Positions 2,262-22,596 of a stretch of DNA of 29,215 bases are shown piece after piece (the stretch's first letter is position 1; the number at the start of each line of letters is the position of its first letter). The stretch is from a virus. The position numbers and the translations under genes were made by a program. The notes beneath the pieces are model-generated. The model made no database searches. It had not been told where the DNA came from and saw only the letters and a list, made by a program, of their open reading frames with translations. The DNA is taken from positions 1 through 29,215 of the IMG/VR virus record IMGVR_UViG_3300032213_001083, one strand, 5' to 3'.

Positions 2262-2784
2262 CCGATATATCTCAAGGCACTATGATGAGGTGAGGAGTTA
2301 CACTGAGTATTTCCTCACTAAATTCAAGGCCAAGATGAGTGCTGATGTAGTCATCAACAATAGCTATCTTTATGTGGCTGAGATAAGTGATGATACAAAG
2401 GATGAAAATAAGGTCAAGAGCTACTTATTGAATACGATTAAAAAGCAAATATTGTGGTCCACTTCAATCAGTCATATCGAGGAGAGAGTCAATGCCAATG
2501 AGCTTGATATTCCAAATGACTGCGATGATGATGAGGATTTGAATCACAAGATACAGCAAGAGAAGAAATATCACGACCACAAATCGTGCATTGAGATATA
2601 CAAGAGAGAGATGAAGGACAGAATCAAGGTCATAATCTTTCAAGCATATTATGAGAAGGGATACAACACCGCCAGGTCAATGGCCAAATACTTTGACATT
2701 CCGGTGACATCGGCTCATTATTACATTAGGGACATTAAACACGATCTAAATAGGATAAAAAATGAGAATCAAGGAGGAATATAA
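2245..2784 (+). CDS. Sigma-70/ECF-like RNA polymerase sigma factor
   Basis: The 179-residue protein has the build of a small ECF-type sigma factor. Residues about 15-75 look like region 2 (ADVVINNSYLYVAEI followed by KVKSYLLNTIKKQILW, matching the usual '.DVVQ.vyl...' and 'v.sYL....rn...' helices). An acidic linker follows at 87-100 (DIPNDCDDDEDL). Residues 125-175 resemble region 4 with a helix-turn-helix (NTARSMAKYFDIPVTSAHYY). It would direct host RNA polymerase to phage promoters. The only candidate phage-specific element I see is TTAATATAT before four late genes. The gene sits at the end of the early string, immediately before terminase, a sensible place for a late activator. A general HTH protein remains possible. 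Confidence 0.6.
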   Translation: MKRTLDRYISRHYDEVRSYTEYFLTKFKAKMSADVVINNSYLYVAEISDDTKDENKVKSYLLNTIKKQILWSTSISHIEERVNANELDIPNDCDDDEDLNHKIQQEKKYHDHKSCIEIYKREMKDRIKVIIFQAYYEKGYNTARSMAKYFDIPVTSAHYYIRDIKHDLNRIKNENQGGI

Positions 2785-3061
2785 AGGGAAAACTATTGTC
2801 AAACACGCAACAGTTAGAAACATAACCGTTGTTGTTGATAATATAGATGTATCAAAGTACAAATATTATGTGTCAATTGGCATGGGATATTTATTTGAGG
2901 ATGAATCAGAAACAACAACCGCACCTGAGCAATGCATCAAGTATGAAGGCATCGAGCAGGAAGTGGAACAAACAACAATAAGTGATGCCAAATCCAAGAC
3001 AAAACGAACAAAAAGAAGAGTATCTCCAAAGGTGCATGGCGGACTCGGAGAGTCAGAATAG
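2762..3061 (+). CDS. Hypothetical protein (99 aa)
   Basis: The N-terminal 55 residues form a probable beta-rich domain (GKTIVKHATVRNITVVVDNI ... YYVSIGMGYLF). The C-terminal 40 residues are charged and likely disordered, ending in KSKTKRTKRRVSPKV. It overlaps the sigma-like gene by 23 bp and the HAD gene by about 77 bp in another frame, an unusually long overlap. No family is recognised. It may be a small virion or packaging accessory because of its place before terminase. Confidence 0.5.
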   Translation: MRIKEEYKGKTIVKHATVRNITVVVDNIDVSKYKYYVSIGMGYLFEDESETTTAPEQCIKYEGIEQEVEQTTISDAKSKTKRTKRRVSPKVHGGLGESE

Positions 3062-3883: not shown

Positions 3884-5021
3884 CACCGTAATCTTTGAGA
3901 AGAACTACGAAGCTCTCCAGGATAAGGATGTACGTTTTATAATAAATGAGGGAGGAAGTAGGTCATCTAAGACATATTCCCTTTGTCAAATGATAATTGT
4001 CTATTCTCTCCAAAATAGGGGGAAGGTAACCTCTATTATCCGAAAAACTTTCCCGGCTCTCAGAGCAACAGTCATGAGGGATTTCCTTGAGATTATCAAA
4101 ATGATGGATCTATATGACATCAATGCTCACAATAAGAGTGAACACATCTACACATTCCCGAATGGAAGCATCGTGGAGTTCTTCTCAGTGGATGACGAAC
4201 AAAAGATACGAGGAAGGAAGAGGGACCTCGCATGGTGTAATGAGGCCAATGAACTATTCTATGATGACTTCACTCAGCTCAACATGAGGACTGAATGGAA
4301 GCTCATATTCGACTACAATCCAAGTGAATCAGCATCCTGGTTGTATGAGCTACCGAAGGAGGAGAGTATCCTCATCAAATCAACGTACCGTGACAATCCA
4401 TTCCTTCCGGATTCCATCCGTAGACAAATCGAGGACCTCAAGAGAACGGATGAGTCACTGTATCAAATTTATGCACTCGGAGAGAAGGCAATCAGTAAGA
4501 GCAACATATATTCCAATTGGACCTTCGTGAAGCATAGACCTGCTAGATTTGTGAACTATGTCTATGGCCTTGACTTCGGTTACAATCACCCCACTGCTCT
4601 CATGCGAGTGTATTGGTGCGAGGATGACATCTACATCGAGCCGGTGATATACGAGAGCTACCTCACCACCACCAACCTCATCGAGAAATGTGAGCAACTT
4701 GGAGTGGAGAAACACATCACGATCGTGGCCGATTACGCACGACCGGAGATAATCGCGGAGATGAACAATGCAGGGTATGATGTTCAGAACGCGAACAAGG
4801 TTGTGAAGAAAGGCATCGACAATATCAAGACCTTCGGAGTGTTCTGCGAGGATGAGTCCAGGATTAAGAAGGAATATGAGAATTATAAGTGGAAGAAGAT
4901 TGGTGACCAAATCACTGATGAGCCGGTGAAGCTATGGGATGATGCCATGGATGCGGTGCGATATGCCGGTACTTATATCCGAAAGGAATACTATACCGAT
5001 GACAGTTACTTCGCCTTCTAA
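3870..5021 (+). CDS. terL: Terminase large subunit (PBSX-like)
   Basis: This is the packaging ATPase and nuclease. The Walker A motif is GGSRSSKT at residues 28-35 (K34). The Walker B region is LAWCNEAN at 120-127 with catalytic E125. The C-terminal RNase-H-like nuclease has D235 (YGLDFGYNHP), D288 (VADYARPE) and the acidic cluster WDDAMDAVRYA at 356-366. The length (383 aa) is in the short range for this family, and the start overlaps the small subunit gene. The gene is intact. The next gene is preceded by a TTAATATAT element, so terminase probably belongs to the previous transcription unit. Confidence 0.93.
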   Translation: MEINSTVIFEKNYEALQDKDVRFIINEGGSRSSKTYSLCQMIIVYSLQNRGKVTSIIRKTFPALRATVMRDFLEIIKMMDLYDINAHNKSEHIYTFPNGSIVEFFSVDDEQKIRGRKRDLAWCNEANELFYDDFTQLNMRTEWKLIFDYNPSESASWLYELPKEESILIKSTYRDNPFLPDSIRRQIEDLKRTDESLYQIYALGEKAISKSNIYSNWTFVKHRPARFVNYVYGLDFGYNHPTALMRVYWCEDDIYIEPVIYESYLTTTNLIEKCEQLGVEKHITIVADYARPEIIAEMNNAGYDVQNANKVVKKGIDNIKTFGVFCEDESRIKKEYENYKWKKIGDQITDEPVKLWDDAMDAVRYAGTYIRKEYYTDDSYFAF

Positions 5022-5039
5022 ACAAAAGAGGTATTTTTG

Positions 5040-5048
5040 TTAATATAT
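5040..5048 (+). promoter_or_regulatory. Late start/promoter element TTAATATAT, site A
   Basis: The 9-mer TTAATATAT ends 2 nt before ATG 5051 and is preceded by a T-rich run (GTATTTTTG). Identical 9-mers precede ATGs at 13601, 15304 and 17901, with 2 or 4 nt between. All four are the first genes of presumed late units. I infer a phage-specific promoter giving nearly leaderless mRNA, or a translation-start element. Confidence 0.5.
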
Positions 5049-5050
5049 AT

Positions 5051-6679
5051 ATGGCATTTAGAACAAAGAAAATATCGCAGATGGATCCGAAAGGAGCCAA
5101 CCTTGCATCGACCGATTTATTGGAGATATCTGAATTGGTTAGTGGAAGCTATGTAACCAAGTCAATCACTGGAGCTGAAATCATTTCCAGTGCGACAACG
5201 GGATACGTCCCCTACGTTGGTGCAACACAAGACCTAGAACTAGGAGCAAACGAACTATACACGGGTAAACTTTGGCTATACGATTCAGTCAATGATAACT
5301 ATGGAAGCGTTCACTTTACCGATACTGATTTTCATATCGAGGATGCGGATGGACACAAGATGCTAGTTATCGAAGATGGGTTTATGCAAATCCACAAGAC
5401 CGATACAATCCAATCCAATCTATTTACAAGCGGATTAACTGCGACACGTAACCACTATTTACCCGATGCTAGTGGAACTATTGCCTTGACTTCGGACTTG
5501 TCTAGCTACGTTCCAACGACTCGCACAATCTCAACAACCGCTCCATTGAGTGGAGGAGGTGACCTTTCAGCAAATAGAACGCTTTCGATTCCAAAGGCAA
5601 CTAATTTAGTCGATGGATATTTATCCGCTACGGATTGGACAACGTTTAATGGAAAGCAACCTACACTAGTTAGCGGAACAAACATAAAGACGGTAAATGG
5701 AACTACGATTCTAGGAAGTGGTGACTTGACTATATCTACGGGAATCACAATCGGTACGACTGCAATCACTTCGGGTACTGTTGGACGTGTATTGTTTGAA
5801 GGTACGGGAAATGTAGTAAGTGAATCGGCTAATATCACGTGGGATAATACTAATAACATATTCAATGTTACGGGTTTAATTAAAGCTACTCAAAACAATA
5901 TTTATGCTACTCACGTAGGAGCAAATATTAAAGGATTATACATTGTAAATAATTCGGATTCGGTTGTAAGAGCGGGTTTACAGTATGACGGAAATACTGC
6001 TTTTGTTGAATTAGTAGGAAGATATAATAACGGACAGACATTTTTCCGTCAAGATGGAGGTAATGGAAATATTTCATTTTTAAGAAGTGGTAGCGAATAC
6101 GGGCGTATTTTTGGAGCAACGGGGAATTGGGGCATCAACACCACCACAGACGCAGGATACAAGCTAGACGTTAATGGTACTGCGAGGGTGAGTGGAGAGT
6201 TAAGAGCGGGTAGTTTACAATTATTAACTTCTGGAAGTCCAGGCACAACGGGTCAAGGAATAACTACAACGGCAAGAAAAATATCTTTTCAATCACAAGG
6301 TGAAATTAATGTTGATGGGGCAACCACCTACCAATTACTTGGGTATGCTGATAGTCCCGTCGCTATGACTCAAAATGCTAGTGGTAGAACAATTGGTTTT
6401 CTTCAAGTAAAAGGCGGTTTCTCATCTCCAAATTTTAATAACACACAAGCTAATTTATTATGGATAAATCCGACATATAATATGTCTGGTACAGCAAATA
6501 CGGGGCAAATTTTAAGAGGTATTTATTATAATCCTACTTTAACTGATTTAACGAATGCTACACACTACGCGTTTCATTCAACAAGTGGTAGACACCGATA
6601 TGAAAATTTACCTACTTCACCAACGGGACTTGCTTCGGGTGACTTATGGAACAACTTAGGAATTTTATCAATAGTATAA
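5051..6679 (+). CDS. Tail fibre / appendage protein
   Basis: The N-terminal ~45 residues (KKISQMDPKGANLASTDLLE) match the virion-anchoring start used by several Bacteroidota phage fibres. Residues about 155-215 hold the fibre-type repeat LSGGGDLSANRTLSIPKATN and LSATDWTTFNGKQPTL. Near residue 355-385 is a shaft-type segment (GNWGINTTTDAGYKLDVNGT). The C-terminus lacks an obvious chaperone/peptidase domain. It probably trimerises and carries host-recognition function. Codon use in about 5200-6900 (many ACG, GCG and GGA codons) looks different from neighbouring genes, consistent with exchange of the receptor-binding part. It begins a late unit. Confidence 0.75.
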   Translation: MAFRTKKISQMDPKGANLASTDLLEISELVSGSYVTKSITGAEIISSATTGYVPYVGATQDLELGANELYTGKLWLYDSVNDNYGSVHFTDTDFHIEDADGHKMLVIEDGFMQIHKTDTIQSNLFTSGLTATRNHYLPDASGTIALTSDLSSYVPTTRTISTTAPLSGGGDLSANRTLSIPKATNLVDGYLSATDWTTFNGKQPTLVSGTNIKTVNGTTILGSGDLTISTGITIGTTAITSGTVGRVLFEGTGNVVSESANITWDNTNNIFNVTGLIKATQNNIYATHVGANIKGLYIVNNSDSVVRAGLQYDGNTAFVELVGRYNNGQTFFRQDGGNGNISFLRSGSEYGRIFGATGNWGINTTTDAGYKLDVNGTARVSGELRAGSLQLLTSGSPGTTGQGITTTARKISFQSQGEINVDGATTYQLLGYADSPVAMTQNASGRTIGFLQVKGGFSSPNFNNTQANLLWINPTYNMSGTANTGQILRGIYYNPTLTDLTNATHYAFHSTSGRHRYENLPTSPTGLASGDLWNNLGILSIV

Positions 6680-6680
6680 T

Positions 6681-6947
6681 ATGGAAACACAAACAAACGG
6701 AGTAGCGATTCAACCAATCGTATATCCACTTAACGAAGGTACTGCGACATTTTTAACAGTACTAGTAGAAGCATTCTTAACCGATGCAACAACAGCGAGC
6801 ACTTATTACAGATTGCTTACCGATGATGGCAAAATCCTAACCGATGGACGCTACCAAATGACGGAAGAACAATTCGCAGAATGGGGGCGTGACAACTCGG
6901 TAGTTAACGAATACGTCGCGGAATATTTAGGAGTTACAATTCTATAA
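6681..6947 (+). CDS. Fibre-associated small protein (88 aa)
   Basis: The product starts METQTNGVAIQPIVYPLNEG and ends with a segment TDGRYQMTEEQFAEWGRDNS then VVNEYVAEYLGV. A 'DDGKil..G...mTeeQf..Wg.dn' core is common in small proteins next to tail fibres in Bacteroidota phages, with unknown function. The gene follows the fibre stop by 1 nt and is probably cotranslated. It may be a fibre assembly factor or minor virion protein. Confidence 0.65.
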   Translation: METQTNGVAIQPIVYPLNEGTATFLTVLVEAFLTDATTASTYYRLLTDDGKILTDGRYQMTEEQFAEWGRDNSVVNEYVAEYLGVTIL

Positions 6948-6958
6948 AAACACGGACT

Positions 6959-7084
6959 ATGTTAACACTATCAGAAGAACAAGTAAAGCAATTAGAAGCA
7001 ATCTTAAGTGAATTACCGATGAAGTTCGGAGTTCCTATTTTGAATATCTTAAACGCAGCTAGTAAACCAACCGAGCAAGAATGA
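6959..7084 (+). CDS. Small helical protein (41 aa)
   Basis: The frame encodes MLTLSEEQVKQLEAILSELP followed by MKFGVPILNILNAASKPTEQE. The stop overlaps the ATG of the next gene (ATGA 7081-7084). Short proteins of this type, with an amphipathic helix followed by GxPI, sit beside fibre genes in several Bacteroidota phages; no function is known. Confidence 0.6.
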   Translation: MLTLSEEQVKQLEAILSELPMKFGVPILNILNAASKPTEQE

Positions 7085-8550
7085 GTCAAACAACCATAGC
7101 ATCACCTCAGGCATTCAGTCCGGCATACAATCCTTTGAAGTTCATCGTTGATTCAACCAACAAGAACAACACTGGATTCAAATACATATTCCAAGTATTC
7201 GAGGCAGGAACTGCAAACAAAATTGCGGAGTATAAAGTGCTACCAACCTATGTTGATGGATATGGTGAGATTGATTTATCAAAGCTACTTCAGACGCAAG
7301 TATCATGGGACCTCAACACGCTGAGCACATCATGGTATAACGCACCGAATTCACGATATCTTTACGATGTCAAAGTTGGTGAGGAGAAATTGGCTGAATA
7401 CTTTTGGACTGCCAACCTAACAAACAACGCAGGGAACACGAGAGTTCATGCAACCAATACATTCGTGGTAGGTGACCAGGTAGTGATCACACAAGATGAT
7501 GGTGGTGTGGCGAATCCTCAGCTCGAAGGCCTTCACACCGTATTGAGTGCAACAGCATCGACATTCACTGTTGGCGTTCCATTCAGCTCCATCACTGATA
7601 TCACCATGGATGGCTTGGTACACTACGCTGATAACCGCAAATTGATTACGTTAAACGTTACTAACTTTGAAGATTACATCGTGTTCAATGGAGCATTCAG
7701 ATGGTTGGATTGGTCAGTGTACGATAACTCAGATTATAAACTAACCTTCGCAGATAGCTATTGGTTAACAAATCAACCTCAGCAATTCAGTTGCACATTA
7801 GGACAAGATTTATATCTTAACCTCCGCAGTGCTCAAGGGCATGATCGAATTGTATTCGTCAATAGCAATGGAGCTTCGTTTTACAAGGACATCAACAATA
7901 CCGATGTCATCTCTCAGGTTCCCGTTGGTCCGAATAACTATGGTATCTTGGTTGGTACCGGTGACCTTATCACCAATACAGTGGAATGGTACGATGTATA
8001 TTATCGCACTGCATTAGGCATTGATTCTAAAAAGTACCGAATCAACCTGGACCGAAGAACAACTATCTCTGAGTATCATATGCTATTTCTTGACCGATTA
8101 GGTTCATACTCATCATTCGCATTCCAATTGAAATCATATGAGAGAGGTGAAATCACTCGCGAGATATTCAACAAGGATGTCAAAGGATATGTGAGTGGAG
8201 CATCATGGAACTACCACACCGAAGATATGGGATTCATGCAGTCAAACATCAACGTGGTGAAGTCATTTGACCTCAATACCAATTGGATGGATGAGAGTGC
8301 AGGGCAATACTTCGAGGAGCTCTTGACATCACCTCAGACATTCGTGAAGATTGTGCAGTACAATACCACTGAGGATGGCCTTCCAATCATTGGAGAGGAT
8401 GGATGTCCAATTCACATCGCTGAGTCAACTGCATATCAACCATGCATCGTTCAGAATAACGCATATGAGGTATACCAACAACGCAACAAGAATCTAATCA
8501 AGCAAAGCATCACCATCAAATTATCAAATCAAGACAACATCAATGGTTAG
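7081..8550 (+). CDS. Large virion/tail-tip protein (489 aa)
   Basis: The protein begins MSQTTIASPQAFSPAYNPLK and is rich in aromatic and beta-forming residues throughout, as expected for a virion surface or baseplate component. The N-terminal segment (FSPAYNPLKFIVDSTNKNNT, then GFKYIFQVFEAGT) recurs in Bacteroidota phage and prophage tail regions. I recognise no enzymatic motif. It overlaps the 898-aa protein gene by 8 bp. Its place between the fibre and the tape measure suggests the distal tail. Confidence 0.6.
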   Translation: MSQTTIASPQAFSPAYNPLKFIVDSTNKNNTGFKYIFQVFEAGTANKIAEYKVLPTYVDGYGEIDLSKLLQTQVSWDLNTLSTSWYNAPNSRYLYDVKVGEEKLAEYFWTANLTNNAGNTRVHATNTFVVGDQVVITQDDGGVANPQLEGLHTVLSATASTFTVGVPFSSITDITMDGLVHYADNRKLITLNVTNFEDYIVFNGAFRWLDWSVYDNSDYKLTFADSYWLTNQPQQFSCTLGQDLYLNLRSAQGHDRIVFVNSNGASFYKDINNTDVISQVPVGPNNYGILVGTGDLITNTVEWYDVYYRTALGIDSKKYRINLDRRTTISEYHMLFLDRLGSYSSFAFQLKSYERGEITREIFNKDVKGYVSGASWNYHTEDMGFMQSNINVVKSFDLNTNWMDESAGQYFEELLTSPQTFVKIVQYNTTEDGLPIIGEDGCPIHIAESTAYQPCIVQNNAYEVYQQRNKNLIKQSITIKLSNQDNING

Positions 8551-11239
8551 AATTCAACTTTCAAATGGCTATCTTGATGTAAAGGAAGGTACTGCATTCC
8601 CTTTGAACTTTTCAATCGGTGATATCCGCGACCTTACAAAGCGTACCGGTACATTCTCCAAGACAATCACATTGGTTGGAAGCAAGAACAACCATAACCT
8701 CCTTGGACATCATTACGATGTAAATATCGAAGATGGTACATTCAACATCAACACGATCACTAGATGCACGGTACTTCAAAACGATGTGCCAATCATGGAG
8801 GATGCATTGCTTCAGTTGGTCAATGTTCGCAAATCTCAGATGACCGATGCATATGAGCAGATGGTTGAGTACGATGTCTTGGTGAAAGATACTCAATGCG
8901 AATTTTACACCGCGATCACCAACAAGGAATTGACCGATTTGGACTTCAGTGATTTGAATCACACATTCACTGCTGCGGATATCATCGCATCGTTTGACAA
9001 TACCATCACCGAAGGATTCAAATATGTATTCCCATATTCATCAACCGGGAGCAATCAGTACCAGGTGCGACAATTTAAACCTGCTATCTATGCCAAACAA
9101 TACTTTGACCGCATATTCTCAAACGCAGGATTCTCATACGAATGGGCCGGATTGAGTGCTTCCCATTTCGACAAATTACTCATCCCTTATAATGGGGATG
9201 CCAACACATTCGATACTGCTGATTATTTAGTTGAGGCAGAAATCACCACTCCATTCACTGTGACTTCATCAGTTCAGTCATATGGTAACTTTGATAATGC
9301 TACGGGATGGACTGAGGTAACTGACCTACAATCATCATTCAATCCAACAACCGGAGTATTCACTGTTCCATTTGATACCTCACTGAATTCAGGTCAAGGA
9401 TACACGATGATGTATGAGATGGACTATTCACTCTTCCTGGACAATAACTCGGGGATGAGTGTGGTGAATTCAAATGGACCATTCATCACTCGTCCAAGGA
9501 TGAGAGCTTCCATCGGCTCATATGAATCTCAGTTGGTTAACGTGGCACCATCAGTTACAGTACCATTCAACACAACCATCACAACAAGTGGAGTGACATT
9601 GGATTCGGGAGTACGCACTGGAGGAATGTTCGTGGCTCAAAACGCATCCAACAGTGGAGAGCTTAATACCGGAGATTCAGTTCAGATTGAGGTTGGGATA
9701 TACCAAACATATGGAGCATTCTTCGGAGCAGGTACAGTGCAACCGGTTGATGTAGTGTTAACCGTTAACTCACTGCGAATCCGAATCCTTCCAACTTCCA
9801 ATGTCCAAGTGATTGGTGGCACATTAGACATCAATGAATATGTGCCATTGAAAATCAAGCAATCGGATTACATCAAGTCAATCTTTCAGATGTACAACCT
9901 TTATGCTGAGGTAGACACTGACCAACCTAACAAGTTAACTCTTCGCCATCGTGATGAGTTTTATGATAATGGAGCTGAAAAGGATTGGACCTACAAATTG
10001 ATGAAGGATAAAGAGCAGAATCTCCTCTTCCTTCCGGATGTAACTAACAAGAAATTAAAGCTCACATATAAGGCCGATACCGATTCAGCCAATACGGTAT
10101 ATACTCAGATGACCGATGAGATATATGGTCAAATTGAGTACACCTTTGATAATGAATATGTGAAGGATACCGATACCAAGGAGCTCATCTTCTCACCAAC
10201 TCCGGTGATATTGAACAGCATCAACGCATATGTTCCAATCTTGGATGGTGAAGCTCCCAAGACAAACATCCGTATCCTTTACGATGGGGGAGTTCAAACT
10301 TGTGGATCGTGGGGATTGGTTGAATATGGCACAACCGGAGTATTCAACAACACGACATATCCAATGATTGGCCATTTCAATGATGCGGTCAATCCAACCT
10401 TTGACATCAACTTTGGTACTTGTGATTACTATTATTATTCACCTCAGACATTAACGTCAAACAATTTATACAACATATATTGGAGGAGAACAGTCAACCA
10501 AATCAATGTGGGAAAAATGCTCACTGCATATTTCAATTTGCAAGAAGGTGACATCCAAACATTGCTATTGAATGACAAGATTCGTATTGATAACTCATGG
10601 TGGAATATCAACCAAGTGGTGGACTACGATGCGAACACATCAGCACCGACCAAAGTTGAATTGATTTCAGTTGATTCGGACATCGAATTGGCACCATTCC
10701 AAGTGCGACCAGGTACACCAACCTCACCATTGACATCAGTTGATGCGGTTGAGTCAACGATGGTGACCAAATCAGTTCAGTCCAACGGGAATCTGAGCGG
10801 TGATGATGTCATTGTGAAGGGTACCGGCAACATTATTGGAACAGGCCTCAGAGGGATTGTAATTGGTGACAATAAGGTATTGAATCAAGATGGGATAATA
10901 ACTCCGCAAATAAACGGAATCACGTTCCAAACGAGAGGATATGTTGCATTGCTCAACCAATTAAGCACATCAGCACCAACAGTGATTGAATTCTCCAACA
11001 CAATTGGACAAATTACCTGGACTCGCACCGCTCAAGGTGAGTATCTTGGAACGCCATTGATTCCATTAAACACATTGACTACCTTTGTAACAATTGGAAA
11101 CACTGAACACGATTACCTTGCAACCGCATACATCAACACCGATGGCAATGTGGTGGTGAGAACAACCAAAACATCCAACCATCAACACACTGATGGAAGG
11201 CTTAACTATTCACCATTAGAAATTCGAACATATGAGTAA
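8543..11239 (+). CDS. Large baseplate/tail-tip protein (898 aa)
   Basis: This is the largest predicted protein. It starts MVRIQLSNGYLDVKEGTAFP and has GDIRDLTKRTGTFSKTITL, a pattern I have seen at the N-terminus of long tail proteins of Bacteroidota prophages. The central part is beta-rich without catalytic motifs. A segment near residues 750-800 (DDVIVKGTGNIIGTGLRGIV) looks like a short stacked-beta region. It probably forms the distal tail hub or side of the baseplate. It ends overlapping the tape-measure start by 8 bp. Confidence 0.6.
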   Translation: MVRIQLSNGYLDVKEGTAFPLNFSIGDIRDLTKRTGTFSKTITLVGSKNNHNLLGHHYDVNIEDGTFNINTITRCTVLQNDVPIMEDALLQLVNVRKSQMTDAYEQMVEYDVLVKDTQCEFYTAITNKELTDLDFSDLNHTFTAADIIASFDNTITEGFKYVFPYSSTGSNQYQVRQFKPAIYAKQYFDRIFSNAGFSYEWAGLSASHFDKLLIPYNGDANTFDTADYLVEAEITTPFTVTSSVQSYGNFDNATGWTEVTDLQSSFNPTTGVFTVPFDTSLNSGQGYTMMYEMDYSLFLDNNSGMSVVNSNGPFITRPRMRASIGSYESQLVNVAPSVTVPFNTTITTSGVTLDSGVRTGGMFVAQNASNSGELNTGDSVQIEVGIYQTYGAFFGAGTVQPVDVVLTVNSLRIRILPTSNVQVIGGTLDINEYVPLKIKQSDYIKSIFQMYNLYAEVDTDQPNKLTLRHRDEFYDNGAEKDWTYKLMKDKEQNLLFLPDVTNKKLKLTYKADTDSANTVYTQMTDEIYGQIEYTFDNEYVKDTDTKELIFSPTPVILNSINAYVPILDGEAPKTNIRILYDGGVQTCGSWGLVEYGTTGVFNNTTYPMIGHFNDAVNPTFDINFGTCDYYYYSPQTLTSNNLYNIYWRRTVNQINVGKMLTAYFNLQEGDIQTLLLNDKIRIDNSWWNINQVVDYDANTSAPTKVELISVDSDIELAPFQVRPGTPTSPLTSVDAVESTMVTKSVQSNGNLSGDDVIVKGTGNIIGTGLRGIVIGDNKVLNQDGIITPQINGITFQTRGYVALLNQLSTSAPTVIEFSNTIGQITWTRTAQGEYLGTPLIPLNTLTTFVTIGNTEHDYLATAYINTDGNVVVRTTKTSNHQHTDGRLNYSPLEIRTYE

Positions 11240-13139
11240 TGAGGTAGCAATTGATTTGACGTTGAATGGGGTAACATCCCTCAAGGCTCAGTTAAAACAA
11301 TTAAAGGCGGCAATTGCCGAAGCTAGTGATCCCGCTCAAATGGATGCACTCGCAAAAAAAGCGGGAGAGGTATCGGATAGGATTAAGGATGCTAATGATG
11401 CGGTGAATGTCTTTGCCTCAGGTTCCAAATTTGAGCAGATATCCTCATCATTTGGTGGTATCAAGGATTCCATCATGTCATTGGATTTTGAGGAAGCATC
11501 ACAAAAGGCTGCCACTTTCCAAAAGGTAATGGGTGGAATCGGAAAGGCTGATATCAGCGGAGCTATTAAAGGCCTTGCAAAGACAGTCACAACACTTGGT
11601 GCTACATTCGTAAAACTCGGTGCTCAGATATTACTCAATCCAATATTCTTAATCGCTGCGGTCATTGCTGCAATTGTGGTTGGAATTGGATTATTCTTAA
11701 AAAAGATTGGTGTGCTTGATGCAGCATTCAAGGCATTAATGGCTCCAATCAATATCCTCATCGATGCGTTCAAATGGTTGACCGATGAAATTGGATTGAC
11801 ATCATACGCAGCAGAGGAAAATGCTGAGCGTGTTACCAAGGCAAATGACAAAGCAATCGAGTCATCCAAGAAACGTGTTGCAGCAGTTGGTGACAATTAT
11901 GATATCGAGATTGCAAGAGCGAAGGCAGCAGGAAAAGATACCACTCAACTTGAATTAGACAAGTCAAAAGCAATTGAAAAAGAGGCGATATACCGCAGAC
12001 AAAAAGCTCAAGAGGAATATGCTGCATTGAATAAGGTTGCATCGGCTGATAACGCAGAGAAACGCAAGAAGCTCCGTGAGCAAATTCAAGCAGAGAACGA
12101 CATCATCAAGGCAGGAAGAAAAGACCGTGCATTGATTGCAATCGCTGATGATGCAGAACAAAAAGCGAAGGAAGATGCAGCGAAAGAAAAAGCGAAGGCA
12201 GATGCTGAGGCAAGAGCGAAGGCATACAAGGATGGAGTGAAAGCTATTCAGGCAGAGATTGCCACTGCCAACAAGCTCATCGTTGATTCAGGTAAAACTC
12301 AAACTCAAAAGGAGATTGATGATACCATTGCCAAATATGACAAGCTGATTGCTGAGGCAAAGAAATACAAGCAGGATGTGACCGCATTGGAAACTGCCAA
12401 GAATCTTGAGGTGAATAATATTCGCAAGGCAGATGGAGCAAATGAGGAAACAGTTCAAATTGAAAGTGCTACCAAAGCAGTTGAACGTATTCGTGCAACC
12501 AATGCTCAAAAACTTCAGATTCAAGGTGAGGCAAACATGGCCTCATTCCAAGACCTTCAAAAATACAATGAAGAGGTCAAGGCTGCGGATGAAGCACTTG
12601 CATCTGCCAAACTTGATGCAGTCAAAGGAACACTCGATGCCATTGGATCACTTGCAGGTGAGAATAAAAAGGTGGCGAATGCATTATTCTTGGTTGACAA
12701 AGCTCTTGCCATTGGTCAAGTGATTGTTAACACTCAAAAAGAGATATCCGCATACGCATCCAATCCAACCTGGTCCTTGTTACCTGATGGTGGAGCAGCA
12801 TTGAAAACAGCTGCGATTGCAGGTGCGAAGATTCGTGCAGCAACATCCATTGGTACAATCGTTGCAACATCCATTGGTAAATTCATGAATGGTAGTGGAG
12901 GCGGAACTGTTGGCGGAGGTGGTAACGTAGCACCACCGAGTGCATCAACACCATCTGCTCAATCATCAGTACCTTCATTTGTACCTGGTAACTTATTCGG
13001 TCAAGGCAATACTCAAAACAATCAAGGAGGAGGTCAAGATACCAACACAAATATCACAGTCACTGCGGTGGTATCCGAAACGGAAATAACTGCGACACAA
13101 AACAACATATTGAAAATCCAAAAATCAGCACAATTATGA
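11232..13139 (+). CDS. Tape measure protein
   Basis: The 635-residue product has the features of a tape measure: an N-terminal MSNEVAIDLTLNGVTSLKAQ with a long helical stretch, a hydrophobic segment at about 133-156 (NPIFLIAAVIAAIVVGIGLF), a long charged alanine/lysine coiled-coil region (about 195-460; repeated AKEKAKADAEARAKA), a second hydrophobic stretch (about 505-560) and a glycine-rich low-complexity tail. Tape measures set tail length at roughly 1.5 Å per residue, so a tail of about 90-100 nm is expected. The size is small for siphoviruses. It lies within the rightward tail operon. Confidence 0.85.
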   Translation: MSNEVAIDLTLNGVTSLKAQLKQLKAAIAEASDPAQMDALAKKAGEVSDRIKDANDAVNVFASGSKFEQISSSFGGIKDSIMSLDFEEASQKAATFQKVMGGIGKADISGAIKGLAKTVTTLGATFVKLGAQILLNPIFLIAAVIAAIVVGIGLFLKKIGVLDAAFKALMAPINILIDAFKWLTDEIGLTSYAAEENAERVTKANDKAIESSKKRVAAVGDNYDIEIARAKAAGKDTTQLELDKSKAIEKEAIYRRQKAQEEYAALNKVASADNAEKRKKLREQIQAENDIIKAGRKDRALIAIADDAEQKAKEDAAKEKAKADAEARAKAYKDGVKAIQAEIATANKLIVDSGKTQTQKEIDDTIAKYDKLIAEAKKYKQDVTALETAKNLEVNNIRKADGANEETVQIESATKAVERIRATNAQKLQIQGEANMASFQDLQKYNEEVKAADEALASAKLDAVKGTLDAIGSLAGENKKVANALFLVDKALAIGQVIVNTQKEISAYASNPTWSLLPDGGAALKTAAIAGAKIRAATSIGTIVATSIGKFMNGSGGGTVGGGGNVAPPSASTPSAQSSVPSFVPGNLFGQGNTQNNQGGGQDTNTNITVTAVVSETEITATQNNILKIQKSAQL

Positions 13140-13585
13140 TATCATACCAAGCATTGACCGATGAAATCATCGCATTCTACAACGCACATCTACAAGTTAA
13201 AAAGGTAGGCACTGATTTCAAAGAGCAGTTATTCAACTTCGCTACAAAGGATGAGAAGTATCCATTGGTATATATCGTTCCAGTGGATGTAGTTGCAAGT
13301 GATAACGTGAACTTATTCAACCTGGAGATATATTGCTTTGATATCATTCAAAAGGATCGTGCAAATATCACCACAATTCTCTCAGATACTCAGCAGATTC
13401 TCAATGACCTTTACTTGAATTACACATTCTCATTGACCGATACTGATTTTGATGTTGAAGGATTCCCAACATTCACACCGCTGAACAATGACCTCTTGGA
13501 TTATGCAGCGGGATGGTTGATGAACATCACATTTGTCTTACCTTCGTGGACAGATTGCCAAATTCCTGAACAAATTCCGAATTAA
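13136..13585 (+). CDS. Tail completion/terminator-like protein (149 aa)
   Basis: The protein starts MISYQALTDEIIAFYNAHLQ. It has a mixed alpha/beta layout and DIIQKDRANITTILSDTQQI in its middle. Size and place resemble tail-terminator or neck proteins. It is ATGA-coupled to the tape measure. Alternative: a minor tail protein. The family assignment is by context and not by a definite motif. Confidence 0.5.
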   Translation: MISYQALTDEIIAFYNAHLQVKKVGTDFKEQLFNFATKDEKYPLVYIVPVDVVASDNVNLFNLEIYCFDIIQKDRANITTILSDTQQILNDLYLNYTFSLTDTDFDVEGFPTFTPLNNDLLDYAAGWLMNITFVLPSWTDCQIPEQIPN

Positions 13586-13587
13586 TA

Positions 13588-13596
13588 TTAATATAT
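13588..13596 (+). promoter_or_regulatory. Late start/promoter element TTAATATAT, site B
   Basis: TTAATATAT ends 4 nt before ATG 13601, in the 15-bp gap after the previous stop. It shares the exact 9-mer with sites at 5040, 15293 and 17888. No terminator separates it from the upstream operon, so it would add transcription rather than start a fully separate unit. Confidence 0.45.
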
Positions 13597-13600
13597 AAGT

Positions 13601-14023
13601 ATGGCTTATAAAAATACCGGTGAATTCAATATACTTTATCCAACAAGGAGAAAGGTTGCCAATGTACTCAAGAACGTAATCAAGCAAGAGGCATTGATTG
13701 ATACCGGTACCTTGTATGATTCAGTGCGTATTAATGCCAAAGTAACTCTTGAGGGAAATCTTCGTATTCAAATTGTTGCAGCATATTACTTCGGATTCCT
13801 TAACAACGGTACAATCAGTATTGCTCCATTTGATTTGGTTCGAAAGTTCAATACTCAGCTTGAGCAACAAGGATTGATATCCGAAATGTATGGTCAATAT
13901 GTTAGCAAATTAGCTAAGACCTATCCAATCTTGGAACTTGGTGGATTGCTTCGTAAAAAAGTCAAAGTCATTTATGATTTCCAACCTCTATTTGGAGAGT
14001 TTTGGGATGCATTAGATTACTAG
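13601..14023 (+). CDS. Neck / tail-completion protein, HK97 gp10-like
   Basis: The product contains ALIDTGTLYDSVRINAKVTL, and then IQIVAAYYFGFLNNGTISI. The 'DTG.L..Sv..' followed by a beta strand and an aromatic 'Y..f.n.GT' is characteristic of gp10/neck-type proteins that join head and tail. The gene is the last rightward one before two leftward genes, and its stop TAG overlaps the stop of the leftward gene as CTAG (14020-14023). It starts with a TTAATATAT element. Confidence 0.6.
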   Translation: MAYKNTGEFNILYPTRRKVANVLKNVIKQEALIDTGTLYDSVRINAKVTLEGNLRIQIVAAYYFGFLNNGTISIAPFDLVRKFNTQLEQQGLISEMYGQYVSKLAKTYPILELGGLLRKKVKVIYDFQPLFGEFWDALDY

Positions 14024-14751
14024 ATTTCCAACTCTTTTCTCATTGCGAGGAAGTTGAATATCAATACCAATTTGGTATCGGTTATTGCATCGAACTTTGA
14101 GAGGTCACCATTACACATGGTCCATATCAATTGCTCCCACCCCCATTTGGATGATTTCTTTTCCTCTTCCTGCTCTTTGCGTTCCTCTTCATCGGTTGAT
14201 TCTTCCTCATCATCGAATGATTCACTCATCAGATTGGAATGGCTATCAAGAAAGTTTTGGCGAAACTGAAGATACTCAGGTATCAATCCGAATACCGAGG
14301 TGATGGGATGCTCATCGAATAGGTGAACACGATCACTTGATTTGAATTTGTATGGCTCGGTGATAACATTCCCCCATTCATCAGTTGATGTCTTTCGGTA
14401 AAGAATCGCACATATGTTGCGGAGGTTATTGATGTAGTCATCAGTGACGAATGCCTCCAGTGTGATAAACTCACCGAGAGTGATGTCAACAAATGGCTTG
14501 AGCTTCAATTCACCGAGTTGATGCTGATATCTTTTGGATGGTTCTGATGTCATCCATGCAAGTTGCTTGGTTATATCCTGGAGTTCATCAAGTTCTATAT
14601 CATCAAAGTCCTCAACCGGAAGGTCTGAGAGGATGGATAACACATCAATGTTATATTCAAATGTTCCATCCTCAATGTTTAAAGACCTTATCTCAATGAA
14701 TTGCTCAATCGTTACTTGGCTCCACTGCTTCGGGAGCTTCAGATTTTGCAT
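14020..14751 (-). CDS. Tail assembly chaperone-like protein, distal partner (T-like)
   Basis: The 243-residue protein starts MQNLKLPKQWSQVTIEQFIE and has TLGEFITLEAFV near residue 92. Its C-terminal part is a strongly acidic linker (SFDDEEESTDEEERKEQEEE) followed by a helical tail (KWGWEQLIWTMCNGDLSKFD). The phrase 'VTIEQFIEI' matches 'LTIEQFEKV' in the upstream gene. The reading frame overlaps that of the upstream gene by 47 bp and is offset by +1 (or -2), as in tail-chaperone G/GT pairs. It may be expressed alone from its ATG or by frameshift. Leftward orientation is odd for tail genes here. Confidence 0.5.
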   Translation of the reverse strand: MQNLKLPKQWSQVTIEQFIEIRSLNIEDGTFEYNIDVLSILSDLPVEDFDDIELDELQDITKQLAWMTSEPSKRYQHQLGELKLKPFVDITLGEFITLEAFVTDDYINNLRNICAILYRKTSTDEWGNVITEPYKFKSSDRVHLFDEHPITSVFGLIPEYLQFRQNFLDSHSNLMSESFDDEEESTDEEERKEQEEEKKSSKWGWEQLIWTMCNGDLSKFDAITDTKLVLIFNFLAMRKELEI

Positions 14752-15259
14752 GGGATGCGATTTTTTCGGTTACAAATACCAGATAAGGAACTGCGATTTC
14801 AGCTTTCAGTTGTTTGAATAGCTTTGATTTATACTTCAAATGTGCTTCAGCGTAGTGCTCAGTGGGTGAAAGGTCACTTCGTTTGAACATCAATGCCAAC
14901 AAATCACTTATCCAATTGTTGGATTTGCGACTAATCAACTTCTCAATCATCTTGGTATCCTTCACCGATAGCTTTAATTGTCCATGGTAGGTATATCCAT
15001 CCAATTCAATCGACTCAACTGCATCCTTTTTCTCGTATTTTGACGAGTTGAATTCCTTCACCTTCTCAATAAACTCGGAAAGTTCCACTTCATTCTCATC
15101 CCATTCGGATTCCTTCACACCAAAGTATTCAAAAATCTTGATATATCGGTCGATGTTATCAAGCTCTTGGTTATTGGTGATTTCAGTTACCTTTTCGAAT
15201 TGTTCAATGGTCAACTCATCCATTCGGTTGGGGATTTCCCGGTCAAAAATCTTTATCAT
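14705..15259 (-). CDS. Tail assembly chaperone-like protein, proximal partner (G-like)
   Basis: The 184-residue protein begins MIKIFDREIPNRMDELTIEQ and continues FEKVTEITNNQELDNIDRYI. It is helical and acidic, like small tail chaperones that hold tape-measure protein before tube assembly. The 3' end overlaps the next leftward gene by 47 bp. An A6 run on the minus strand (complement of 14761-14766) lies exactly where the second frame first opens after its upstream TAA (14772-14770). The gene begins leftward from a promoter TAAATTTG (complement of 15277-15284). Function is inferred from layout. Confidence 0.5.
   Translation of the reverse strand: MIKIFDREIPNRMDELTIEQFEKVTEITNNQELDNIDRYIKIFEYFGVKESEWDENEVELSEFIEKVKEFNSSKYEKKDAVESIELDGYTYHGQLKLSVKDTKMIEKLISRKSNNWISDLLALMFKRSDLSPTEHYAEAHLKYKSKLFKQLKAEIAVPYLVFVTEKIASHAKSEAPEAVEPSND
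14761..14766 (-). promoter_or_regulatory. Candidate programmed frameshift site (A6)
   Basis: Read leftwards the sequence is ACC GAA AAA ATC in the G-like frame. Slipping +1 or -2 on the six A's puts AAA under the tRNA-Lys in the next frame and continues into TCG CAT CCC ATG of the second gene. That frame is closed by TAA at 14772-14770 and open after it, so the A6 is the first place a slip could work. Confidence 0.4.
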
Positions 15260-15276
15260 GTGTATTGTTTTATGAA

Positions 15277-15284
15277 CAAATTTA
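15277..15284 (-). promoter_or_regulatory. Leftward promoter -7 box TAAATTTG
   Basis: The minus strand reads TAAATTTG, matching the Bacteroidota -7 consensus TAnnTTTG. It lies 18 nt from the ATG at 15259. A convincing -33 TTG at 17-20 bp is not seen, so it is probably moderate or regulated. It faces away from the rightward TTAATATAT element at 15293-15301. Confidence 0.45.
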
Positions 15285-15292
15285 CAATTTTT

Positions 15293-15301
15293 TTAATATA
15301 T
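15293..15301 (+). promoter_or_regulatory. Late start/promoter element TTAATATAT, site C
   Basis: TTAATATAT ends 2 nt before ATG 15304, after a T7 run. It is one of four identical sites. It sits 9 bp from the leftward -7 box, so the two divergent promoters could not be fully used at the same time. Confidence 0.5.
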
Positions 15302-15303
15302 AC

Positions 15304-16281
15304 ATGACCAAAGACCTGCCAATATACAAAATCACTATTGATCCCGAATATTCTGATGGAGAAGATTTGGGCATTGAGCAGATTGCATTTACTTCTCAAC
15401 CGGCAATCAAGGTGAAAGGAATGGCATTCGAACAAGTACAACGAATGGTATTTGCTGATGACTTAAAGTATCGAATCACCGCACCGGCAATGATACCGAT
15501 GGAGATATACCGCAAGGACAACGAGCAAGGTGAATACTATGTTCAATTTTCAGAGGAAACAATCGCGAAGATTCACGAGAAGTTCATGAGCGACCTTCGA
15601 AATCGTGACCTATTCAACCTGGAGCATGACACATCCAAAACAGTTCCGGCATATATCTTGGAAACATGGGTGGTTGACAATCCAAAACAAGATAAGGCCT
15701 TCAGTACATTCGGTATTGATGTGCCAAAAGGTACGTTAATGGTGACTGCTCAGATAACTGATAAAGAGTATTATGCTGAATTGGTTGCCAATGACCAAGT
15801 TGGATTCTCAATCGAGGGATTCTTGGGATTGAAATTAAGTAATCAATTAAACAAATATAACATGAACAAATTACCTGATGGGGAGCACTTAATCGATGGC
15901 AAAATCTACGTTGTTGTGGATGGCGAAATCGTTGAGATTAAGGATGCACCAATTGTCGAGGAGGCAATGGAAGAAGTTGCAATGGAAGAAGTTGCATTGG
16001 AAGAAACAGTTGTTGAGGAAGAAGCTCCAATTGTAGAAGATGCAGTGAACGAAGAAATGGCAATTGATCCTGCAATGGATTCAGAGGCTATCCTTGCAAT
16101 CGTTACACCGATTCTTGAGGAGAGAGAGAAAGCAATCATCGCATTGATCGCTGACCTTCGTAACCAAATGGAAGAGATGATGGTTACTGAAACGGAAGTT
16201 GAGGCAACTGACAACAAAACTAAAATGTCAATCCATGACAAATTTAGTGCAGTGAGTAAATTTTTAAACACAAATAACTAA
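15304..16281 (+). CDS. Prohead protease (XkdF-like, S78_2) fused to scaffold-like tail
   Basis: I start at ATG 15304 (MTKDLPIYKITIDPEYSDGE), just after the TTAATATAT element. Residues 1-180 resemble XkdF/Peptidase_S78_2 phage proteases: LFNLEHDTS with H108 and NDQVGFSIEGFLG with S169 as likely catalytic pair, preceded by ETWVVDNPKQDKAFSTFGID. Residues 190-325 are Glu/Ala-rich with predicted coiled coil (EEREKAIIALIADLRNQMEE), ending in a basic stretch. This layout fits a protease with a C-terminal scaffolding (delta-like) domain that directs procapsid assembly and is then degraded. No separate scaffold gene is seen before the capsid. Confidence 0.75.
   Translation: MTKDLPIYKITIDPEYSDGEDLGIEQIAFTSQPAIKVKGMAFEQVQRMVFADDLKYRITAPAMIPMEIYRKDNEQGEYYVQFSEETIAKIHEKFMSDLRNRDLFNLEHDTSKTVPAYILETWVVDNPKQDKAFSTFGIDVPKGTLMVTAQITDKEYYAELVANDQVGFSIEGFLGLKLSNQLNKYNMNKLPDGEHLIDGKIYVVVDGEIVEIKDAPIVEEAMEEVAMEEVALEETVVEEEAPIVEDAVNEEMAIDPAMDSEAILAIVTPILEEREKAIIALIADLRNQMEEMMVTETEVEATDNKTKMSIHDKFSAVSKFLNTNN
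15964..16008 (+). repeat. 15-bp tandem repeat inside protease-scaffold gene
   Basis: GCAATGGAAGAAGTT is present at 15964-15978 and 15979-15993, followed by a diverged unit GCATTGGAAGAAACA at 15994-16008. It encodes A-M-E-E-V repeats in the acidic linker between protease and scaffold parts. Such in-frame repeats can change copy number without breaking the protein. Confidence 0.7.
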
Positions 16282-16300
16282 CAATTAACAACAAAACAAA

Positions 16301-17233
16301 ATGAGCAGAAAATTAAAATTCGACTTGGACATTGACGCATCAGCGTTATTACAAGCAAACAGCGAGGCATTCTATTCTCGTGCGTATTTACAAGAGGAAA
16401 CGGTTGACAATTACCGTACTTTGCCAGGAATTAAATTTAAGACGAAAATTTCCAACGTCACATTCGGACAAGTGTTGCAGGCCGAGAACTGTGGGTGGAA
16501 TTCTTCAACTGACGAACTTGCTTCAGTAGAAGTTGACGTATGTGGATTGTCTGCAATGGCTGAGATTTGTCAATTCCAATTGGAGCAATCATTCGTATCA
16601 TTACAAATGACAAAAGGATCTAACGGTGATTTCACAGTAGCTTCATTCATGGATTACTATTGGGGAGAAATGGCGAAAACAATCGCTGAGAACGTTGAGA
16701 AATTACGTTGGTTAGGTAACACAAGCTCACAAGTTCCTGCACTTGCATTGTGTGATGGTTATGTGAAGTCATTACTTGCTGATGATGCAGTGATCGATAT
16801 CGCTTCTCCAGTTGCAATTACTCCATCAAATGTTCTTGCTAAATTGGCATTGGTATACGCTGCAATTCCTGCTGCGGTTATCGCTAACCAAGAGAACTTG
16901 AGAATCTATGTATCTTCACCGGTTGCTACTGCATATCGTGCTGCGGTTGCTGCTGCGAATACTCAAGCTAACTTGACTCAAGCATTGGATTTCTCTTATT
17001 TAGGTATCAAGATGGTATTGTGTCCAGGTATGGGTACAACATCAAAAATCGTTGCTACATTGAAAGATAACTTAATCTATGCATTCGATGCTGAAGGAGA
17101 TGGTAAAGCATTACGTGCTATCAATTTAGCTGATACAGTTGCTGAGCCGGTTATCCGTACTCGTGCAAACATGAAAGTTGGATTCACTCATGTGAATGGT
17201 AATGAGATTGTATTCTACAACTCTGCATCTTAA
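16301..17233 (+). CDS. Major capsid protein
   Basis: The 310-residue product (MSRKLKFDLDIDASALLQAN) follows the protease gene with an A-rich leader (AACAACAAAACAAAATG). Codons are biased to GCT/GTT/GCA and resemble a strongly expressed gene. The protein has the alternating alpha/beta structure of an HK97-type capsid, with an alanine-rich central helix (AAVIANQENLRIYVSSPVAT) and a C-terminal strand set (RTRANMKVGFTHVNGNEIVF). A hairpin terminator lies immediately downstream. The context is highly specific. I do not recognise a chain cleavage site. Confidence 0.85.
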   Translation: MSRKLKFDLDIDASALLQANSEAFYSRAYLQEETVDNYRTLPGIKFKTKISNVTFGQVLQAENCGWNSSTDELASVEVDVCGLSAMAEICQFQLEQSFVSLQMTKGSNGDFTVASFMDYYWGEMAKTIAENVEKLRWLGNTSSQVPALALCDGYVKSLLADDAVIDIASPVAITPSNVLAKLALVYAAIPAAVIANQENLRIYVSSPVATAYRAAVAAANTQANLTQALDFSYLGIKMVLCPGMGTTSKIVATLKDNLIYAFDAEGDGKALRAINLADTVAEPVIRTRANMKVGFTHVNGNEIVFYNSAS

Positions 17234-17244
17234 TTAATATTCCT

Positions 17245-17273
17245 GAGGGGATGAAATACTCCCCTCTATTTTT
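17245..17273 (+). terminator. Terminator after the capsid gene
   Basis: GAGGGGA (17245-17251) pairs with TCCCCTC (17260-17266), loop of 8, followed by TATTTTT. It would end or reduce transcripts after capsid. The next gene has its own A-rich leader. Confidence 0.7.
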
Positions 17274-17293
17274 AAATATTTAAAACAACAAAA

Positions 17294-17818
17294 ATGGCTT
17301 GTGAAAATTTAGAATCCATAGTTAAGTCGTGCGACAATAACAGTGGTGGGATTTTCAAGGTATATATCAACCAACAAGATAACATCGATAGCATCTCCTT
17401 TGCTACTGCTCCTAACACATGGACAATCGATGAAATCAACCTAATTGTAGGTGGTGATTTATACACTGAATTTGAAATCCGAAGAAATACCGGAAGTTAC
17501 ACCGAAGATGCAGCAATTGACCTTGTCAATGGTAGCTCATATGTAACTGCAACAATCACATTGATGTTCCACCGAAGAGATCAAGCGAAATCTCAAGCAA
17601 TCAAAGTGCTTGGTGCAGGACAACAATACTTGAATGCAATCATCCAAGATGCAAATGGTAAATATTGGTACTTCCCATATTTGCAATTGAGTGCAGTTGG
17701 TGAAGGCTCAGGAACTGCTCGTGCAGATGGTAGCAAATATTCAGTGACATTGATTGCTGAAAATGATTTCCTTGCATACGAAGTAACTGAAGCTGCGGTT
17801 GCTGATGTGATTGCATAA
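17294..17818 (+). CDS. Major tail tube protein
   Basis: The 174-residue product (MACENLESIVKSCDNNSGGI) has a beta-rich body and a pattern (GGIFKVYINQQDNIDSISF ... WTIDEINLIVGG) seen in small tail-tube proteins of Bacteroidota phages. It has an A-rich leader (AAACAACAAAAATG) like the capsid gene and terminators on both sides, indicating a separate strongly expressed unit. It lies between capsid and portal, away from the tape measure, which is unusual. Alternative: a minor capsid or decoration protein. Confidence 0.65.
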   Translation: MACENLESIVKSCDNNSGGIFKVYINQQDNIDSISFATAPNTWTIDEINLIVGGDLYTEFEIRRNTGSYTEDAAIDLVNGSSYVTATITLMFHRRDQAKSQAIKVLGAGQQYLNAIIQDANGKYWYFPYLQLSAVGEGSGTARADGSKYSVTLIAENDFLAYEVTEAAVADVIA

Positions 17819-17837
17819 TAAAATACAATTTAAAGAG

Positions 17838-17865
17838 AGCTCATCCATCCGGGTGGGCTTTTTTT
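17838..17865 (+). terminator. Terminator after the tail tube gene
   Basis: AGCTCATCC (17838-17846) pairs with GGGTGGGCT (17851-17859) through nine pairs including G-U, tetraloop ATCC, and a T7 tract. It stands 22 bp before TTAATATAT site D, so a new unit starts right after it. Confidence 0.85.
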
Positions 17866-17887
17866 ATAAACATTTTTGAAGGTTTTC

Positions 17888-17896
17888 TTAATATAT
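17888..17896 (+). promoter_or_regulatory. Late start/promoter element TTAATATAT, site D
   Basis: TTAATATAT ends 4 nt before ATG 17901 and lies directly downstream of a strong terminator. If this motif were not a promoter, the portal-lysis genes would lack an obvious one. This is the best placed of the four copies. Confidence 0.6.
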
Positions 17897-22518: not shown

Positions 22519-22566
22519 GCATTCACAATTAATTTTGTTCAAAACTGAAAAAAAAGTTTAAAAAGT

Positions 22567-22596
22567 TTTGCATTTATGAAACCTTTCATATCTTTG
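22567..22596 (+). promoter_or_regulatory. Strong host-type promoter TTTG-N18-TATCTTTG
   Basis: TTTG (22567-22570) is followed after 18 bp by TATCTTTG (22589-22596), a good match to the Bacteroidota promoter consensus. The start of transcription would be near 22603 and the first gene begins at 22623. It should drive the early/replication operon. Confidence 0.8.

Follow-up and report, generated by a model that had tools for sequence, protein, structure and literature searches.

A two-part element beside late gene starts in a phage lineage as a probable promoter, and a candidate phage-encoded sigma factor that may read it

A repeated element at the start of presumed late units

Why does the same A/T-rich 9-mer stand directly before the start codons of several presumed late units in this phage? 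The DNA analysed, called the window here, is a linear IMG/VR virus record of 29,215 bases and about 60% A+T. An exact search of the whole window placed TTAATATAT at 5040, 13588, 15293 and 17888, on the plus strand only and with no other copy, each followed by a start codon after 2 nt at site A (ATG 5051), 4 nt at B (13601), 2 nt at C (15304) and 4 nt at D (17901); the positions and the 2 or 4 nt are those that the earlier note had reported. Its claim that four such gene starts are beyond chance also held, as shuffled sequences carried 0.45 copies on average over both strands and never four (0/100 shuffles), and the combination of the 9-mer, 2-4 nt and an ATG, observed four times, had a mean of 0.05 and a maximum of 2 in 2000 shuffles. 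The strong terminator said to precede D is real: a predicted hairpin at about 17831-17866 on the plus strand (-20.5 kcal/mol, z -7.5) lies directly upstream of site D and is kept in many relatives. Rfam and tRNA scans of the whole window were empty.

When sites A-D were aligned, a RAACA box appeared upstream of an AATATA core, with a gap of 16 nt at C and 17 nt at the other three. The 9-mer most likely belongs to a late promoter with two boxes, of which it forms the downstream one. In the whole window RAACA-N16/17-AATATA has five exact sites, all of them on the plus strand (2000 shuffles gave 0.21 on average and at most 4); the fifth, site E, is not detected by the exact 9-mer. When the window was scanned with a matrix of promoter class I (see below), the five sites scored 19.6-27.5 bits and the next-best place 10.6, a gap that is partly built in because the matrix includes the window sites. 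Site E (2818-2845) consists of AAACA at 2818-2822, N17 and AATATA at 2840-2845, inside ORF 2762-3061 and ahead of terS-terL. At site A (5020-5047), AAACA (5020-5024) partly overlaps the terL stop and AATATA (5042-5047) precedes the ATG of a tail-fibre-like gene. Site B (13568-13595) reads GAACA-N17-AATATA. Site C (15274-15300) reads GAACA-N16-AATATA and precedes a prohead-protease-like gene, with the capsid gene further downstream; here the mechanical ORF begins at TTG 15265, yet conservation begins only at ATG 15304. Site D (17868-17895), AAACA-N17-AATATA, precedes a unit with portal, holin and endolysin genes.

Viral contigs were scanned with three proteins, TerL, the capsid and the sigma-like one described below, which gave 229 loci from relatives, some overlapping. 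The spacing between RAACA and AATATA in these loci peaks on the plus strand at 17 nt (417 occurrences, 172 unique sequences) and 16 nt (75 occurrences, 17 unique), with none on the minus strand. Besides its five sites in the window phage, the bipartite element is kept in about a hundred relatives, and sites A-D are retained at orthologous genes in dozens of them, with lineage-specific flanks shared across sites. The earlier note had made retention in related phages a test of its idea. The exact 9-mer fails this test, as on these alignments it is restricted to one lineage, whereas RAACA-N16/17-AATATA passes and is the conserved unit; the 9-mer was therefore dropped as the functional unit. A scan of genome contigs with TerL gave no match. 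The scan with the sigma alignment gave one: a pond MAG contig of phage-like appearance (L234, JAIXRY010000011.1), labelled 'bacterium', which is 29.6 kb long and resembles a relative of the window phage.

At site A, AAACA-N17-AATAT persists behind terL even in those relatives where an unrelated gene has taken the next place and its ATG stands 9 to about 19 nt from the element. Across relatives the distance to the ATG runs from 3 to about 19 nt, and RAACA-N17-AATATA is fixed. An element that stays fixed while the ATG moves and the gene is swapped favours a role in transcription over one in translation. At site E, which in classes I and II lies within coding sequence and lacks a start codon of its own, the Asn and Asn-Ile positions are constrained at the synonymous level (AAC 59/59, AAT 58/60, ATA 61/61), and other Asn and Ile codons of the same gene vary. 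In class III this element falls at the end of the sigma-like gene and abuts the next ATG (AAACA-N17-AATATAGGTATG); class IV, a single lineage, is without site E. We conclude from this sequence evidence that sites A-E are very probably promoters. As a separate observation, the slot behind promoter A (5051-6679 in the window) holds unrelated proteins in relatives (MGTNLIGEL.., MAIYNQSW..) with the promoter unchanged; it is probably a modular slot for a tail fibre or receptor-binding protein.

Promoter classes and the 179-aa ORF

The flanks of AATATA vary between lineages and largely agree among the sites within one lineage, being TTAATATAT in class I (the window), GCAATATAAG in class II, ATAATATAGG in class III and TTAATATTGTT in class IV. 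As far as the alignments indicate, promoter class is linked to a 179-aa ORF at 2245-2784 on the plus strand, upstream of terS-terL, and not to the terminase: the partial Mantel r is 0.69 for the ORF (0/2000 permutations) and -0.20 for terL given the ORF. Two groups separate the two genes cleanly: L027-L030 combine a terL at 95% with an ORF at 55% and class II promoters, and L048 and L050 a terL at about 85% with an ORF at 76-90% and class I promoters. Host-linked divergence could be another source of this covariation. In alignments between classes, the helix-turn-helix (HTH) of the ORF is well conserved and a loop at about 46-58 differs, a pattern that would fit the invariant RAACA and the variable AATATA flank. 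In the mosaic genomes the sigma-like gene and the promoter class travel as a pair, independently of the terminase, and this offers a natural experiment on the joint change of a regulator and its several dispersed targets.

Every terL locus that extends far enough upstream contains the ORF. It has no match in Pfam or PHROG, none among PDB sequences, and none by tblastn in cultured phages. Its AF2 model comprises seven helices, with sigma2-like helices in residues 2-84 and sigma4-like (HTH) helices in residues 99-177, the N-terminal half forming a three-to-four-helix unit. The full-length model is modest (pLDDT 72, pTM 0.43), and the N-terminal half modelled alone reaches pLDDT 84 and matches the sigma2 domains of SigR, SigC, CnrH and sigmaE with modest Z. 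In Foldseek searches of the PDB with the ORF model, the top matches were almost all sigma factors, mainly of the extracytoplasmic function (ECF) type, at modest scores and with no PDB match below E 0.001; phage sigma-70 and ECF sigma proteins were matched in BFVD. With VIA, each half matches its own sigma domain at Z values within the range that helical bundles can reach by chance. An hhalign comparison with ECF sigmas gave 154 collinear columns at a weak E of 0.06; 3/100 column shuffles reached this score, none with more than 87 columns. The predicted architecture is that of an ECF factor, namely sigma2 and sigma4 within about 170-190 aa and without regions 1 and 3, as read from a model with modest scores. 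RAACA-N16/17-AATATA likewise has the form of an ECF promoter, in which a -35 box with AAC is separated by about 16-17 nt from a -10 box; the classic CGT of the ECF -10 box is absent in the window and present in phage P12024S. There is a good probability that the 179-aa ORF is the sigma factor that reads late promoters A-E. If this is right, it identifies the likely regulator, a 179-aa sigma factor too divergent for family libraries, together with the five promoters that it serves.

The cultured Nonlabens phages P12024S and P12024L (NC_018271, NC_018272) have a gene order similar to that of the window phage. In P12024S, gp33, encoded just before terL, matches PF04542 (sigma-70 region 2) above the cutoff (E 1.4e-5). 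Seven AAACA-N15/16-CGTTA sites stand on the plus strand before annotated genes, and one on the minus strand (mean 0.48, maximum 3 in 500 shuffles); from the C of CGT to the A of ATG there are 12 nt in 6/7 sites and 11 nt in the seventh. As in the window, the late genes have an AAACA box, with CGTTAATATA two nt before the ATG. Unlike in the window, the downstream box is CGTTA, and the spacing is counted to CGT; the record annotates no promoters. In Flavobacterium psychrophilum, ECF promoters are marked by a CGT -10 box (PMC9723704), and if the P12024S CGT lies at about -12 to -10, the start would be at or beside the A of the ATG. Profile comparison of gp33 with the window ORF gave no useful alignment and no detectable similarity, and the likeness between the two phages may reflect shared descent or convergence. 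A collection scan for CCGTTAATATANNATG returned mostly chance hits among the matches listed. P12024S is a cultured phage in which the idea of a late sigma factor could be tested.

Start codons, host-type promoters and rival readings

In relatives, AATATA is separated from the ATG by 3 nt at most A and C sites, by 3-5 nt at B and mostly by 5-6 nt at D. This ATG is the true start, because from codon 2 to codon 12 the amino acids are conserved and the nucleotide changes synonymous, and at B and D there are in-frame stops just upstream. With an ATG only 3-6 nt behind AATATA, a transcript that carries it must begin within a few nucleotides of it. In phiEco32 and 7-11, as far as the cited account extends, transcription starts 6-9 bp beyond the promoter element (PMC8948821). 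Such a start would fit B and D and would miss the A of the ATG at A and C, where the position of the ATG makes it unlikely; a closer start or a different geometry would then apply. Read in this way, the sequences suggest that the late mRNAs are probably leaderless or nearly so. Leaderless mRNAs are a minor class in flavobacteria and make up 5.5% in F. psychrophilum (PMC9723704). The start-codon fusion makes leaderless translation testable in a phylum without Shine-Dalgarno sequences.

The early genes have promoters of another type. The one at 22566-22596 on the plus strand, TTTTGC-N17-TATCTTTG, is retained in relatives, with a leader some 26 nt long. The Bacteroidota sigmaA promoter carries TAnnTTTG at -12 to -5 (PMC9723704), and TTTTGC-N17-TATCTTTG is of this type; therefore early and late genes use different promoters. 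On the plus strand, TAnnTTTG is absent at sites B-E. A host-type TATTTTTG beside site A was considered as the true promoter and rejected, as classes II and III do not retain it. The GAACA box of site C extends as GAACAAAnnTA in 47/47 unique relatives, and its CAAAnnTA is TAnnTTTG on the minus strand, a host-type -7 box (TAAATTTG, 15277-15284) for the divergent genes at 15259-14020. Since this box overlaps the RAACA of promoter C, the two promoters should exclude each other, and the onset of late transcription at C could shut the minus-strand gene pair. The same overlap of late and host boxes, CAAATATA, occurs at two P12024S late sites (L255 5379 and 23929), near small minus-strand genes. The two minus-strand ORFs of the window (15259-14705 and 14751-14020) overlap, are apparently paralogous (LTIEQF/VTIEQF) and lie within the plus-strand late block; they are possibly tail-assembly chaperones. 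Elsewhere, small early ORFs have a repeated A-rich leader, TAAACAACAAGAACAATGAA, at 93-122, 343-372, 550-579 and 803-832, a possible translation leader, and the small early protein encoded at 23820-24335 matches the DnaA C-terminal HTH just under the Pfam cutoff (E 2.9e-7).

The earlier note had left two functions open for the 9-mer, a late promoter or a ribosome-recruiting element. Bipartite conservation, spacing, strand bias and covariation with the sigma-like ORF support the former well. The latter is not supported. An A/T-rich translation-initiation element would be in place in a phylum without Shine-Dalgarno sequences, where initiation depends on nearby A residues (PMC6847099), and TTAATATAT does adjoin ATGs. 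Such an element would hardly be linked rigidly to a RAACA box 16-17 nt upstream, stay in place when the ATG moves away in some relatives, sit without a start codon inside the gene at site E or have flanks that covary with a sigma-like protein, and a different A-rich leader, AAACAACAAGAACAATG, is used by other genes of this phage; we hold this reading to be very improbable. That the sites are chance repeats in a genome so rich in A+T, where another A/T 9-mer occurs five times, is practically negligible as an explanation, being refuted by orthologous conservation, the spacing peak, strand bias and synonymous constraint.

Two further readings accept the sites as promoters and differ on the protein involved. 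RinA/Ltr regulators are encoded in the same position as the ORF, right ahead of the terminase genes (PMC13123087), only the C-terminal HTH of the ORF is obvious by eye, and Pfam yields no sigma match; the phage protein would then be a DNA-binding late activator that aids a host sigma factor. We think this unlikely, since the downstream box differs from the host TAnnTTTG and changes along with the protein as if read by it, the N-terminal half alone models as sigma2 with good pLDDT, five dispersed promoters have sigma-type spacing, and P12024S has its Pfam sigma region 2 gene at the same place. If an alternative sigma factor of the host, ECF or other, read the sites, it would be unexplained why the sigma-like gene is constantly present and why, in mosaic genomes, promoter class follows this phage gene more closely than terL. 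Flavobacteria do have several ECF sigmas, one of whose motifs carries a CGT -10 box (PMC9723704), but we judge such a reader quite improbable.

We therefore favour, as the likely explanation of the whole, that A-E are late promoters read by a phage-encoded ECF-type sigma factor with the host core polymerase. The two-part element with its conservation, strand, spacing and position, its covariation with the ORF and the sigma-like fold prediction are results of the analysis; the sigma activity, the late timing and the exact 5' ends are what we infer. In this scheme, the host RNA polymerase and primary sigma factor would transcribe the early genes from TTTTGC-N17-TATCTTTG. The 179-aa factor would then join the host core polymerase, its sigma4-like part reading RAACA and its sigma2-like part opening the AATATA box. 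This would switch on the late units, terS-terL from E, the tail genes from A, the unit at B, protease and capsid genes from C, and portal to lysis genes from D, and the mRNAs would begin at or within a few nucleotides of the AUG. More tentatively, and with somewhat less than even confidence, we suggest that, in a large group of phages of Bacteroidota, sigma-specific late promoters have become fused to the start codons, with leaderless mRNAs for structural genes and with sigma factor and promoters diversifying together. If this were true, mutually distinct sigma/promoter classes would allow phages in the same cell to run their late programmes separately.

Relation to known late-transcription systems

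The late promoters of T4, TATAAATA, are A/T-rich elements read through a phage sigma-like protein, gp55, and have no -35 box. The window sites are not of this kind, as their sequence is different and they have an invariant RAACA box. They also differ from the RinA/Ltr systems of Gram-positive phages, which comprise activators of about 130 aa and a late promoter with upstream repeats; here the protein has 179 aa and two domains, one of them a sigma2-like half, and there are five dispersed bipartite promoters.

Phage-encoded late sigma factors are already known from phiEco32 and 7-11, and the window has the features of this type: a phage sigma-like gene, a motif shared by structural genes and host-type early promoters. 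The cited accounts of phiEco32 (gp36, tAATGTAtA middle/late promoters) describe, as here, a sigma-like phage protein and a short A/T-rich element before late and structural genes, with early genes left to the host sigma (PMC8948821, PMC4331800). According to these accounts, the phiEco32 promoters are a single element with the start 6-8 bp downstream, and gp36 is without region 4; the window phage, by contrast, belongs to a different host phylum, its element has an additional box 16-17 nt upstream, and the ATG follows 3-6 nt after the element. Closer still in form is 7-11, whose gp47 is a sigma with region 4 and whose late promoters (GTAAtg-16-aCTA) are bipartite with a 16-nt spacer; only early and late classes are described, as here (PMC8948821). 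The box sequences of 7-11 are different, and neither start-codon fusion nor lineage-wide covariation is among the features described in that account. Searches of an open-access paper collection turned up no description of such a late-transcription system for phages of Bacteroidota. Compared with phiEco32 and 7-11, what is new in the present case is the phylum, the promoter sequence, the start-codon fusion and the concerted diversification of sigma factor and promoters.
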